Assembly: GCF_005405185.1 (NCBI RefSeq)
Contig: NZ_BJDO01000001.1
Coordinates: 60,139 to 124,138, forward strand
Length of the DNA: 64,000 nt
Source of the DNA: Secundilactobacillus hailunensis
GTDB taxonomy: Bacteria; Bacillota; Bacilli; Lactobacillales; Lactobacillaceae
Direction: 5' to 3'
Part shown: positions 1 to 5,468 of the stretch, piece after piece
Layout of the letters: every line of letters begins with the position of its first letter
Numbering within the stretch: position 1 is the stretch's first letter
The notes under the pieces: model-generated
What the model was told of the DNA's origin: nothing
Database searches by the model: none
Seen by the model: the letters and a program-made list of their open reading frames with translations, nothing else
Translations under genes and position numbers: made by a program

Positions 1-3000
1 TACGTCGTCACTGTACTCGCCGGAATCGCTCTGGTAATTACTATTATCATTGCTCAACTGCGTACTGTCGCTGTTGACAGCCGTTTGCTGATCCGAAGTT
101 ACGTTGGAACCCAGATCACTCTTTTCCTTCGTATTATCCGAAGTCAATTTACTGTTATCATCACTGAAGTTGCTCAGATCATTGCTCGTCTTGTTCTCAT
201 CGCTGGTCAAGGTGCCCGAGGTGGTATTGCTATCACTTAAGTCCGAAGCCACGTTGCTCTGATCACTCTGGAACTTATTCGAGTCGCTGTTGACCTTCGT
301 CTGATCACTGTTGATCGCGCGCTGGTCATTGCTCAACGCATTCGACTTCGCACTGGCGGCACTCGTGACGTCGTCACTGTACTCGCCGGAATCGCTCTGG
401 TAATTACTATTATCATTGCTCAACTGCGTACTGTCGCTGTTGACAGCCGTTTGCTGATCCGAAGTTACGTTGGAACCCAGATCACTCTTTTCCTTCGTAT
501 TATCCGAAGTCAATTTACTGTTATCATCACTGAAGTTGCTCAGATCATTGCTCGTCTTGTTCTCATCGCTGGTCAAGGTGCCCGAGGTGGTATTGCTATC
601 ACTTAAGTCCGAAGCCACGTTGCTCTGATCACTCTGGAACTTATTCGAGTCGCTGTTGACCTTCGTCTGATCACTGTTGATCGCGCGCTGGTCATTGCTC
701 AACGCGTTCGACTTAACCATAGCTTGATCACTAGCGTATGCATTTTTATCATTATTGTTGGGAACATAGACTGCATTATAATCACTAGTGAACTGTGCAG
801 CATTAGTAACAGTAAGTGCTGATCCAAGACCGTTTTCTTCCTTGCCGACATCACTAACTACGGTACTTTCATTAGTACCCACTCCACCTAAGTCACTATT
901 TAAATTACTTAAATCATTCGAAACCGTCCCAGATGTTGTATCCGAAACCGCAATGTCGCTCATAAACTTCGTTTGATCCGAGGTGAAATCGCTCTGGTTA
1001 GGAGTGAAATTGCTTAAATCACTGTTAAGTTGGGCATCATCACTCTTCAGTACCCCGTCATTAACATAGGTGCTGTGACCATTAGAGGCATTAGCACTAT
1101 CCGTATTGAATATAGTCGTATCACTAGTTAACTTGGCAACTTCATCAGAGGTCCCATTTGAGCCAACGTCTGACTTCTCATTACTCAAATCAGAACTAAC
1201 TGTACCCAAATCAGAATTCATATTGTTAACATCGCTAAGAACATTAGCTATATCACTGGAAAGGCCAGCTGAATCGTAGTTGCTTTTAACTAAATCTGAA
1301 ACAAAGTCAGATTGATCATTTGTTAATTTATCAGAAACACCATTAAAGATACCGGCATCTGAAGCTAAAGCGGAGGAATCCTTGGACTGGTTGTTAGTAT
1401 ACGCAACAACTATGCCAGCCTTACCATTATTCGCACTATCAAGAAGCGCATTATCATATGTCAAACTCGTTGCTGGTGTGACTGTTGGCTGCTCAGTACC
1501 AGTTGCATAATTTGAAATTGTTAACGTCTGTCCTAAATCAAGAGTCAACCCATTAGCAGAAGCTGTACCATACGCTACTTTGCTTCCTTGTGAAACAGTC
1601 GCACCATCACTATTAGTAATGGTATAGTCAAAGGTTTGACCTGCAGGTACATTAGTTGCTGTAACTGAAACCGCCTGGGTCTGTCCCTCTTTAATTTTCT
1701 GGGAGCCATAAATAATCTTAATAACCCCACCATTTTCTGGAACAGCATACGTACTTAAATCTGCTGGTTTAGAAATAGGCTTACCATCAAATGTCAAACT
1801 TGCAGGTAAATTGGAAGTATCAATACTGCCACCATATACGCCAGTCAAAGCAGCACCACTAACATTAGTGGTAATTGGTTTGCTGAGATTTGTATCAGTC
1901 GTACTGATAACATCGCCATCACTGTTCGTTAATGTTGTCCGATATATAGGCTGTTCTGAATAAGCCAGTGCGTTAGCCTTCACTGCAGCATTATAAAAAC
2001 TCGTGAAGTATGCTTTAGACTGTGGGCTGACATAGTTTGCCTGCTCATGAGGGTTAGTTTCTGATGTATCAACGCTAGCATCAGGAGTTAAAGTAAGCGC
2101 TTGACCAGCACTATCTGTAAGTGTTTGGCCACCCTTAGCTGGATTAGTGACCCGATCCCAAACAGCATCCTCTGTTGCTTGCGGAGTATCACCTGTTACT
2201 TTTCCAGTTGCTAAATCTTTTAGAGCAGCATCATAAAATGGCTTGATGTAGTGGTAAACATCCCAAGCACCTTGTTGGAATGTCTCTACCTGAGTCTCTT
2301 TAGTTGTATCAATAGTTGAATCTAGATTTGCAACTTTAATGTCCTTGGGTGCCGTAGTTGCAGTAATTCCAAGCGCTGTCCACGCAGCATCAGGATCAGC
2401 TGCATTTTCTGAGTACATAATTGAAAGCGCCTTATATTTCCCGAGCATAGCTGAACCATACAGCGTACTTACAAGTGCTTTTGAATAAGCATAATAAATA
2501 TCATTAAAAGCAGAAAAGTTACTGAATGCTTTCATATTCCCAGTTTCAGTCTGAGCGTTCCAATCACTAACTGAGCCGGGAGCTGCAGCCCCAACGTATT
2601 CTGCCAGCGTTTCTGTATCATTTACGCCAGCAATACCTTCCATAATACCTAAGCCAGACAAAGCTTTTTTTGCATTCTGATACATTGCTTCTAGGTGAGG
2701 CAAAATAGTTGTCAATGAATAAGAGCCATCAATCGTCATTAATGAATGTACCAACGGATAAAGGTTAGCATCTACTTCACCCTGAACCCCAGTATCCGTT
2801 GTTGAAGTCACTCCACTAAGATCAGAAATCGTATTAACAGCGGGCATTATCTGATTCAGCACATATTTTTCAGCAGAAGGCACAATCGCATCTATATACG
2901 TTGCAAAAATACTATCGATAAACTGACTAAAAACACTGTCATAAAAGTCTTGACTCATTCCTGCAGGCAATTTAAAGGTACCAAGTGACCCCTTTAAATC

Positions 3001-4455
3001 ATCAGCAGTAGCTTGCGGATTTTTATAATCCGTTGAGTGTAAAATGTTTTTTAATGAAAAAGCATGCACATCCTGTTCAAGGGATTGCAAGACACCTGTT
3101 CCGGAATCGTCCATACCAGTTTGGGCCATCGCAGCTTTTTGCTGAGGTGACATGCCGTCAATAGCTTTATTCAACTGGCTAACATAACTATCAGAAGCAC
3201 CATCAAAGTAATAGTAGATTTCCGATAAGTAATTCATATAGGTTCCGAAAGTGGTCGCGTCATTTTTAACTGGCTTCAAGAAGTTACTAAACCTCAATGC
3301 ATCAGTCGAACCGGAACTATACTCAGTTTCAAGTTCGTTATAATAATTCTGCAATTGAGAAACACTCGCGTTAGTCACAACTTGCTTGGTAGTTAAATCC
3401 GTATATGATCCAGTTCCAGCAGCACCCATCAGTGCAATATCACCCATTGTTACAGGAGTTGAAAAAACAGTTTGAACCGAACGCGCTTGTTCATCAGATA
3501 CCGTACTTGTAGAATACGTCCGCCAAGTTTCTCCTGCCGCTGAAACCGTTAAATTAACCGACTTAAAACCGGCAGTTACCAGTCTCGATTGGATCGAGGT
3601 AATTGTCGTTTCGTCAGTAGCTGAGTTCAAGGCTATCGTTAAGGTACCATCTGTGCCAACCTTATAAGTGGATCCAGTTGGTAGACTGGTCAATACCGCA
3701 GTTTGAGCAGCAGTTAAATCAACAGGAGCTGTTTTAGCTGCATCACTAGTGGCTGTTTTAGAAGCACCTTGACCCAACTTAACTGAATTTTGAGTTAAAT
3801 CTAGGGTTGTCGTATCTGAATCAGATGAAGTCTGTCCTGTTTTTACGTTATCACTGCTGTCTGTTGTAGTAGTCTTGCTGGTTGTATCAGCTGTAGCGTT
3901 ACTGTTATCAGGCAGTGTCTTCGCATCGGACAAGGTACTAGTACCAGATAAAGCGCTGGAATCAGTACTGTTGGTCCCATTGGAAGCAGGCGTGACCGCA
4001 GTTTTAGCTGATGTCACATTACCGCTACTGGCATCAGATGCGCCAGAGTTTGTAGCCTTGGTGGCAGTTTTATCCGTGTTCGTTTTTGTTGAGTCAGTAG
4101 TTGCTGTATCAGCCGTACTCGTTTTTGTTGAATTGGAAGTTGCTGTATCGGCTGTTGTCGGCGTATTAGCTGCAACATCGCTACCGCTAGATTCATTGGA
4201 ACTAGACCGTAAAACAGCCGTTGTCGATGATTGGTCAGCTGCTGACACCGTTCCAGTAGATTCTGTTTCTGCATCCTGTTGCGTATCGGCGCGAACAGTA
4301 TTTGGTGAAAATGTCGCTAACACCGCTGAAAAGCCTAAAGTTAACAAGCTGGCAAATACAAAATTCTTACCAACTTTATACATCTTGTAATGTAATTTTT
4401 CATCCGTTAAATCATGAACTAATTGTCGTTCTTTGCGTTGATTTTTTTGCATCAT
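1..4455 (-). CDS. Large exported repeat surface protein with KxYKxGKxW-type signal peptide (C-terminus outside window)
   Basis: Open on the minus strand from the ATG at 4455 (preceded by a GGGGGGA ribosome site) to the window edge: 1485 codons with no stop. The N-terminus has a short basic stretch and then KMYKVGKNF followed by a hydrophobic core and an Ala-rich cleavage area ending near VRADTQ. This matches the KxYKxGKxW signal class used for long surface proteins, but with Phe where Trp is usual. Residues about 45-250 are Ser/Thr/Asp/Ala-rich and low complexity. A less repetitive body follows to about residue 1020. From there to the window edge the protein is dominated by Ser-Asp pairs about every seven residues (NSDQTKV, NSDSNKF, QSDQSNV). 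The last part is a near-identical 122-residue repeat. No anchor is visible because the C-terminus is off the window. Function is unknown; adhesion or biofilm is a family-level guess. The gene is divergent from a TetR-family regulator. Confidence 0.88.
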   Translation of the reverse strand, partial: MMQKNQRKERQLVHDLTDEKLHYKMYKVGKNFVFASLLTLGFSAVLATFSPNTVRADTQQDAETESTGTVSAADQSSTTAVLRSSSNESSGSDVAANTPTTADTATSNSTKTSTADTATTDSTKTNTDKTATKATNSGASDASSGNVTSAKTAVTPASNGTNSTDSSALSGTSTLSDAKTLPDNSNATADTTSKTTTTDSSDNVKTGQTSSDSDTTTLDLTQNSVKLGQGASKTATSDAAKTAPVDLTAAQTAVLTSLPTGSTYKVGTDGTLTIALNSATDETTITSIQSRLVTAGFKSVNLTVSAAGETWRTYSTSTVSDEQARSVQTVFSTPVTMGDIALMGAAGTGSYTDLTTKQVVTNASVSQLQNYYNELETEYSSGSTDALRFSNFLKPVKNDATTFGTYMNYLSEIYYYFDGASDSYVSQLNKAIDGMSPQQKAAMAQTGMDDSGTGVLQSLEQDVHAFSLKNILHSTDYKNPQATADDLKGSLGTFKLPAGMSQDFYDSVFSQFIDSIFATYIDAIVPSAEKYVLNQIMPAVNTISDLSGVTSTTDTGVQGEVDANLYPLVHSLMTIDGSYSLTTILPHLEAMYQNAKKALSGLGIMEGIAGVNDTETLAEYVGAAAPGSVSDWNAQTETGNMKAFSNFSAFNDIYYAYSKALVSTLYGSAMLGKYKALSIMYSENAADPDAAWTALGITATTAPKDIKVANLDSTIDTTKETQVETFQQGAWDVYHYIKPFYDAALKDLATGKVTGDTPQATEDAVWDRVTNPAKGGQTLTDSAGQALTLTPDASVDTSETNPHEQANYVSPQSKAYFTSFYNAAVKANALAYSEQPIYRTTLTNSDGDVISTTDTNLSKPITTNVSGAALTGVYGGSIDTSNLPASLTFDGKPISKPADLSTYAVPENGGVIKIIYGSQKIKEGQTQAVSVTATNVPAGQTFDYTITNSDGATVSQGSKVAYGTASANGLTLDLGQTLTISNYATGTEQPTVTPATSLTYDNALLDSANNGKAGIVVAYTNNQSKDSSALASDAGIFNGVSDKLTNDQSDFVSDLVKSNYDSAGLSSDIANVLSDVNNMNSDLGTVSSDLSNEKSDVGSNGTSDEVAKLTSDTTIFNTDSANASNGHSTYVNDGVLKSDDAQLNSDLSNFTPNQSDFTSDQTKFMSDIAVSDTTSGTVSNDLSNLNSDLGGVGTNESTVVSDVGKEENGLGSALTVTNAAQFTSDYNAVYVPNNNDKNAYASDQAMVKSNALSNDQRAINSDQTKVNSDSNKFQSDQSNVASDLSDSNTTSGTLTSDENKTSNDLSNFSDDNSKLTSDNTKEKSDLGSNVTSDQQTAVNSDSTQLSNDNSNYQSDSGEYSDDVTSAASAKSNALSNDQRAINSDQTKVNSDSNKFQSDQSNVASDLSDSNTTSGTLTSDENKTSNDLSNFSDDNSKLTSDNTKEKSDLGSNVTSDQQTAVNSDSTQLSNDNSNYQSDSGEYSDDV
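2..714 (-). repeat. 366-bp tandem repeat (two near-identical copies, more may lie outside)
   Basis: Positions 2-348 and 368-714 match over 347 bases with a single mismatch (340 A versus 706 G), giving a period of 366 bases or 122 codons. The linker between copies (349-367) encodes an Ala/Ser-rich spacer. Each unit encodes a run of Ser-Asp (or Ser-Asn-Asp) heptads. The copy at the window edge is probably followed by others. Codons here are more GC-rich (AGC, TCG, GAC) than in the related but diverged heptads at about 720-1330. Confidence 0.95.
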
Positions 4456-4600
4456 AAAATTCCCCCCAATTCTAAAATTCAGGACCGGCAACTAACTACA
4501 CTAATAGTTGCAAAATCGGGCATCCGTTTGGCCCCACTCCTCCAAGAAAGGGACTTCTACTCGAAATTAACGATCCATATCATACACTTACCTGACATTG

Positions 4601-4810: not shown

Positions 4811-4819
4811 TGGTATAAT
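4811..4819 (+). promoter_or_regulatory. Extended -10 promoter of tetR
   Basis: TGGTATAAT is an extended -10 (TGn plus a perfect TATAAT at 4814-4819); no good -35 is visible. The ATG at 4818 lies inside this -10, so it cannot be the start on this transcript. This favours the ATG at 4866. Confidence 0.65.
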
Positions 4820-4865
4820 GCTGACATTGAACACTGAAGCATCACTTAAAAAGGCGGCGAACAAT

Positions 4866-5468
4866 ATGGCTGACAATTCCTTATCAAGTAATCATCAATC
4901 ACATCGAACCACTGAACAACTGATTGTTCAATCATTCATTAATTTGTTAAATAAGACACCCAATCACCCACTGAAAGTGACTGATATTTGTCGGGAGGCT
5001 TCCATAAATAGAGGCACTTTTTATCATTATTTTGAAAGTGAAGCGGAACTAATTGAAGCCTGTGAAGACCATTTAGTTAATAAATTTTTTTTATTCGGAC
5101 AACAGATTTTTAAACACCAAACCCTGACTTCCTTTACAAAGCAGCTATCAACTATTCATCTTAATTTTTTCAAACAATTTGTTGATGAACTGCCGCTAAT
5201 CGATGTATTGTTGCATAAATCACCCAGATCTCACCTAACCGATAAATTAATCGAAGTCATTGAAAATAGCGGCACTGCAGGTTTAGCAATGTTAGCGCCG
5301 CACTCAAATAAACAGCTTAGAACCCTGATTGCAGTCGATAGTGCTGCAGAGGTAGTCGGTCTGCTTTCATATTGGAGTATGCATCCCGATATAAAACCTA
5401 ACGTGCTAGCTGATTTATTATCACTTAGCGAAAAAGGTCAATTTACCCTGCTTCAAGCTAAAAATTAA
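4866..5468 (+). CDS. TetR/AcrR-family transcriptional regulator
   Basis: 200 residues, usual for TetR regulators. Residues about 37-66 hold the helix-turn-helix, with KVTDICREASINRGTFYHYF followed by an acidic ESEAELIEA helix, the signature of the TetR N-terminal domain. The C-terminal ligand/dimer domain is not recognisable and gives no ligand. Start chosen at 4866 because AAGGCGG lies about 8 bases upstream and the in-frame ATG at 4818 overlaps the -10. It is divergent from the large surface protein gene and may control it and itself; that is inferred from position only. Confidence 0.85.
   Translation: MADNSLSSNHQSHRTTEQLIVQSFINLLNKTPNHPLKVTDICREASINRGTFYHYFESEAELIEACEDHLVNKFFLFGQQIFKHQTLTSFTKQLSTIHLNFFKQFVDELPLIDVLLHKSPRSHLTDKLIEVIENSGTAGLAMLAPHSNKQLRTLIAVDSAAEVVGLLSYWSMHPDIKPNVLADLLSLSEKGQFTLLQAKN

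Follow-up and report, generated by a model that had tools for sequence, protein, structure and literature searches.

Bacterial surface-protein stalks that are glycosylated on serine are usually regarded as extended or disordered. In the staphylococcal Clf/Sdr proteins, a wall-anchored stalk made of Ser-Asp (SD) runs is accompanied by a pair of glycosyltransferases (GTs), SdgA and SdgB, encoded beside the gene. SdgB alone glycosylates DSD peptides, as described in PMC8561734, and deletion of SdgA/SdgB is reported in PMC3794999 to expose SDR proteins to cathepsin G. In the accessory-Sec serine-rich repeat proteins, a KxYKxGKxW signal peptide and a Ser-rich stalk occur with two GT4 genes nearby. 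The Gtf1/Gtf2 pair of L. plantarum serves general protein O-glycosylation with several targets, both GTs together being described as required for HexNAc addition (PMC5796085).

Here we describe a surface-protein gene with an SD stalk at one edge of a 64,000-nucleotide stretch of DNA (the window) from Secundilactobacillus hailunensis, a genome of 154 contigs (G000); the genus also holds S. silagei (G011) and S. angelensis (G001). The gene is located on the minus strand, and its frame, 1497 aa within the window, is open at the window edge, where it is truncated by a 98-N assembly gap. Its features are listed in Table 1. With the Clf/Sdr proteins it has in common the Ser-Asp stalk, the wall anchor, the GT pair beside the gene and SdgB as the best PDB match of that pair; with the accessory-Sec serine-rich repeat proteins it shares the signal type, the Ser-rich stalk and the two GT4 genes nearby. 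The protein appears to work like an Sdr or serine-rich-repeat adhesin, yet it is a member of neither family as tested. We propose that its wall-anchored stalk is probably a helix whose outer face is O-glycosylated by the adjacent GT pair.

Table 1. Features of the SD-stalk locus of S. hailunensis. Positions are those of the window, except where L008 is given.
Feature	Position	Strand	Remarks
Surface-protein gene	1..4491	-	start codon probably the ATG at 4455 or that at 4452
C-terminus of surface protein	left of window, across 98-N gap (L008:10041-10138)	-	
KxYKxGKxW signal peptide	4288..4404, aa 30-68	-	Pfam PF19258 2e-11; TIGR03715 5.6e-8
Ser/Thr-rich linker	3601..4284, about aa 70-297	-	
Head region, 740 residues	1381..3600, aa 298-1037	-	without Pfam family; occurs also with other stalks
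SD heptad stalk	1..1377, aa 1039-1497 (part inside window, so at least 459 residues)	-	Ser = f, Asp = g
122-residue repeat unit, head-proximal copy	368..714	-	
122-residue repeat unit, second copy	2..348	-	ends at scaffold gap
Older, diverged SD heptads	715..1377	-	GC3 0.31
TetR-family regulator, divergent	4818..5468	+	kept beside stalk gene in 3/3 species
First GT4 gene	L008:7645-9189	same strand as stalk gene	NCBIfam best SdgA 3.2e-67
Second GT4 gene	L008:6110-7645	same strand as stalk gene	NCBIfam best SdgB 1.6e-76

The signal peptide is the sole Pfam match on the surface protein. Across the gap, a Ser/Asn-rich tail leads to the wall anchor LPQTNE, after which the protein ends with a hydrophobic segment and a basic tail; the anchor, for which the initial annotation had proposed to look, passes the cut-off of TIGR01167 (25.4 bits; cut-off 15.9), while Pfam PF00746 scores it at 16.7 bits, under its cut-off of 20. 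LPQTxE is the sortase motif of L. plantarum. The reading frame differs beyond the gap, as expected from its arbitrary length. The whole surface protein matches 12 of the 15 genus genomes, mostly via signal and linker only.

The head region is without a family in Pfam and NCBIfam, and no A domain as in the Clf/Sdr proteins was recognised; the best match of a PDB profile search had an E value of 0.22. When the head model (mean pLDDT 65) was compared with the PDB by Foldseek, there were 245 matches at E<=10, the best at 0.22 and none at E<=0.001, and with VIA-align against 978 chains the best Z score was 4.1, none being 5 or more. The head matches 11 of the 301 family genomes, in three genera; these relatives share the homologous head, the KxYKxGKxW signal and, where seen, an LPQT-type anchor.

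Within the window, the stalk (aa 1039-1497) contains 47 SD per 459 residues, with nearest spacings of 7 (14 times), 8 (9) and 14 (4), which agrees with the seven-residue spacing read in the initial annotation: there are 14 SD pairs at lag 7, whereas 2000 shuffles averaged 5.1 and never exceeded 12. Taken by itself, the diverged part (219 aa) shows only a moderate excess (6 pairs; mean 2.0, maximum 8). For the diverged part plus one copy, the fraction of helical spacings (3, 4, 7, 8, 11, 14, 15, 18) is 0.73 versus a null of 0.42, a value that 0/1000 shuffles reach. Windowed SD spectra peak at 7.1-7.2 in S. hailunensis and at 3.6 in S. angelensis; for the C-terminal piece of the latter, the SD spectrum is weak (67/500 shuffles reach it) and the helical spacing fraction is 0.68 versus 0.44 (9/1000). 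The contrast with staphylococcal SD runs drawn in the annotation stands for the spacing, since SD comes every seven residues here and long uninterrupted runs are lacking, but the adjoining enzymes are of the staphylococcal system's kind.

Hydrophobic residues occur at -5, -2, +2 and +5 relative to SD, a 3-4-3 pattern; if these are taken as a and d, then Ser falls on f and Asp on g, that is, on outer positions. The pooled a/d hydrophobic fraction is 0.42 versus 0.09 elsewhere (-1 and +1 being outside the comparison), where the maximum difference in 1000 shuffles was 0.065. A hydrophobic period of 3.5-3.67 was reached by 0-2 of 500 shuffles in each of the five stalk segments, versus 431/500 for the N-terminal linker (aa 70-300) and 38/500 for the head. 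The a/d share of about 42% pooled, which is weak for a stable coiled coil, is 57% in the diverged part. In an alignment with S. silagei that covers 260 residues at 64% identity, a hydrophobic residue is retained at 39 of 41 hydrophobic a/d positions; identity is 22/26 for SD Ser, 24/26 for SD Asp and 66/134 for the remaining positions. A special constraint on the SD serines is only suggested by this alignment, because other serines are kept equally well in one direction (18/21; in the reverse direction 20/32, versus 20/26 for SD Ser).

A single-chain AlphaFold2 model of the stalk is helical almost throughout, with low to moderate confidence (mean pLDDT 58, best ten-residue block 84; 4 aligned sequences only). 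The helical rod with one modifiable face that the initial annotation had suggested gains support from the SD-phased hydrophobics, their period of 3.5-3.6, the a/d conservation and this predicted all-helix model. Nothing in the analysis pointed to the phosphorylation mentioned there or to an oligomeric coiled coil; calcium binding by Asp was considered as well, with nothing for or against it. Alternatively, the stalk might be glycosylated but disordered, an extended, sugar-stiffened chain as in Sdr and serine-rich-repeat adhesins, in which the spacing of seven merely reflects the repeat unit. The low AlphaFold2 confidence, the composition rich in Ser, Asp and Asn and the Sdr precedent (as presented in PMC3794999) would agree with such a chain; we nevertheless judge it quite unlikely, as the 3-4 spacing of hydrophobics is in phase with SD and is kept as a class in S. 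silagei, and the same register is found, with alanine, in a stalk of another genus (g14; see below).

Two GT4 genes lie directly downstream of the stalk gene, on the same strand; in contrast to Gtf1/Gtf2 of L. plantarum with their several targets, the pair is beside one stalk gene. They score 227 and 258 bits with the SdgA/SdgB models, where the NCBIfam cut-off of 800 bits is not reached, and the GtfA/GtfB models of NCBIfam fit them worse, which sets them apart from the enzymes of the accessory-Sec systems. The best PDB chain for both is 7ec7_A (8e-49 and 3e-59), identical in sequence to 7vfo, which is named an SdgB complex in PMC8561734; identity to SdgB is 27-31%. All six donor and catalytic residues G15, R329, K334, E406, G407 and E414 (roles as given in PMC8561734) are present in each GT, whereas in the positive SD-acceptor tract each retains only three of the nine SdgB residues (R43, R224 and Y265). 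The altered tract fits a sparser acceptor, and could also point to a different substrate. All nine lactobacillar GTs scanned, including one beside SecA2, score best to SdgA or SdgB, so that this name says little about the substrate, and we have rejected the GT family name as proof of it. As far as can be judged from sequence, the adjoining SdgA/SdgB-like pair speaks for the glycosylatable face foreseen in the annotation. Elsewhere in the S. hailunensis genome (G000:C2:19953-22588) we found two more ORFs (688 and 244 aa) related to the GT pair; similar pairs occur in S. angelensis, S. silagei and G007.

The stalk matches four of the 301 family genomes: those of S. hailunensis, S. angelensis and S. 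silagei and, weakly (E 3.5e-4), that of G206 from another genus. Stalk, GT pair and divergent TetR gene recur in S. silagei and S. angelensis. In either species, the head and the first part of the stalk are at one contig end, while the end of the stalk, the anchor and the GT pair are at another; these split pieces presumably represent one gene each. The GT pair adjoining the C-terminal stalk piece is 90-94% identical to that of S. hailunensis. For the second GT, identity is 94% in S. silagei and 90% in S. angelensis, and the next best match by score among the 15 genus genomes is 35% identical. The TetR gene is 68% identical to its counterpart in S. angelensis and may regulate the stalk locus, given that it is kept beside the stalk gene there while other neighbours differ.

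The pattern of recurrence bears on a second alternative: that the stalk is a bare helical spacer, an acidic unmodified rod, and that the GTs act on other surface proteins, like Gtf1/Gtf2, or on wall teichoic acid, like TarM. The poorly kept SD-tract residues would suit this reading, as would the presence of TarM among the PDB matches of the pair, albeit far below SdgB (1.5e-20 versus 3e-59). In 3/3 species, however, the pair accompanies the stalk, and the other 12 of the 15 genus genomes lack the second GT at 90-94% identity. Furthermore, the head relatives have other stalks, without SD heptads (Muc_B2 repeats by Pfam in L041, the one scanned), and no GT was seen in any of the eight such loci examined, four of which (L043, L108, L109 and L110) end inside the gene, the others showing 667, 754, 1073 and 3352 bases downstream.

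Relatives of the first GT occur at E<=1e-50 in 199 of 397 family genomes. We have surveyed the 40 GT loci next in rank after the four known ones; in two (L120 and L156) the upstream side is off the contig, leaving 38 observable. A Ser-rich ORF on the same strand lies directly upstream of the GT in eight of these, which belong to three genera only (four in g24, three in g14 and one in g5). Its absence from the other 30 is a point for the unmodified rod, a reading that we consider doubtful on the whole; we keep to the glycosylated helix. In G004 and G003 (C55), the GT pair adjoins Ser-Ala-rich KxYK-type proteins on the upstream side.

In all 13 Ser-rich stalks of GT loci taken for the comparison, Ser has a period of 3.4-3.8 that 0/200 shuffles reach; these stalks are not independent of each other, S. 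silagei was left out for its short fragments, and S. angelensis is represented only by the piece without GTs. None of 24 other surface ORFs had a Ser period reached by two or fewer of 200 shuffles (the nearest, by three), a comparison confounded with composition, since the controls hold less Ser (4-12%). The GT-adjacent locus L087 of G005 is outside the 13 and counted among the 24, and L107 is in both control sets. At L087 (G005:C2; 6185-13481), a GT adjoins a surface protein (KxYK-type, LPQTNE) whose SD pairs lie within GTDPNKTDTDGDGVTDG-type repeats; a helical Ser period is not clear in its densest-Ser window (17/200 shuffles reach it).

In G206 (g14; C44), a different surface protein with ASDASKA heptads and a DUF5776 end (L111 3358-9729) has its own GT pair directly downstream (L111 9900-11474 and 11478-12983), and a KxYKxGKxW signal is found in the preceding ORF, in another frame (L111 2295-3359). 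With Ala counted as core, its stalk has the same register as that of S. hailunensis (0.79 versus 0.26), the core being less sharply defined because Ala is common at -1 and +6 too. Similar loci are present in G325, G315 and G335. It is possible, although we put it forward only tentatively, that the Lactobacillaceae hold a class of glycoprotein stalks with Ser decorated by a GT4 pair along one face of a helix and not along an extended Ser-x chain, and that such stalks arose on different proteins, each with its own adjacent pair. Proposed members have SD heptads with an aliphatic core (Secundilactobacillus) or an alanine core (g14), position f being Ser and g Asp in either case; putative Ser-Ala helices in g1, g5 and g24 would join them.

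The SecA2 model TIGR03714 has a single match in S. hailunensis, at 919.4 bits under a cut-off of 930, which we take for the housekeeping SecA, in line with the one SecA of other genus genomes. The cut-off is passed in one of the 15 genus genomes (G007), and G013 has a second, split SecA-type match. With only one SecA-type protein in the genome, accessory Sec export as in the serine-rich repeat proteins was rejected for S. hailunensis on the SecA2 criterion, and the general Sec route appears likely. In G007 (C10), the locus L086 combines a SecA2 over the cut-off, GT relatives and a KxYK-type ORF and is accessory-Sec-like.

The initial annotation had also reported a recently duplicated 122-residue unit with 347 of 348 identical bases. 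This is essentially right: window 2-348 and 368-714 are identical at 346 of 347 bases, differing at window 340 (base 1 differs too), and the repeat period is 366 bp, that is, 122 codons. Such identity supports the recent expansion or conversion that had been postulated. The neighbouring heptads are diverged and AT-richer, as stated there (GC 0.391 versus 0.474-0.480 in the copies). The copies have a GC3 of 0.65, compared with 0.31 for the diverged heptads, 0.30 for the head and a median of 0.51 over 32 long ORFs of the window, stalk gene included. In S. silagei, too, GC3 jumps within the gene, from 0.29 to 0.67 (the higher value covering 39 codons), and S. angelensis shows a weaker jump; GC-biased conversion would fit, and so would an old import.

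Immediately left of the gap, 101 bases (L008 from 9940) are identical to window 1-101, an exact suffix-prefix overlap of the gap edges; in S. silagei and S. angelensis, no overlap exists between the gene-piece ends. The shared 101 bases could either close a third copy or belong to overlapping contig ends left unmerged, so the number of units is two or more; if the ends were simply unmerged, the gap may not be real and the units may be just two. None of the three species has an assembly that runs unbroken through the array: S. hailunensis has the gap, the other two have contig ends at both pieces, and copy number is therefore unreadable from these assemblies. These breaks, and a copy that abuts a gap with edges overlapping just as unmerged contig ends would, might suggest that the near-identical duplication itself is an assembly artefact. 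We hold this to be very improbable, as both copies are in one gap-free stretch, differ from each other at one position and have different flanks. Moreover, S. angelensis has several diverged units, spaced from start to start by 114, 117, 118, 119 and 128 residues, with a single interval of 231; tandem units hence exist in the family, and as an account of their existence an artefact is unlikely.

For the glycosylated helix, we envisage the following course. The stalk would fold as one long helix of amphipathic character, possibly in a coiled coil, where SD occupies the outward-facing heptad positions f and g. Before the protein leaves the cytoplasm, HexNAc-type sugars would be attached to the SD serines there by the two SdgA/SdgB-like GT4 enzymes, and the glycosylated protein would then be exported by the general Sec route and anchored by sortase at LPQTNE. 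The sugar coat may make the stalk stiffer, protect it and keep the head clear of the wall, and stalk length may change by exchange between the near-identical 122-residue units.

Among the open-access papers searched, judged by title and the opening of the abstract, none describes a helical SD stalk of such kind, and what is probably new is a helical acceptor of fixed register; from the Clf/Sdr proteins the present one differs in its predicted helix with a hydrophobic core as well as in its signal. If true, lactobacilli would have a different mechanical design, a helix bearing sugars along its outer register and with built-in acceptor spacing. The stalk and the two GTs are encoded by three neighbouring genes, which makes it a testable design.
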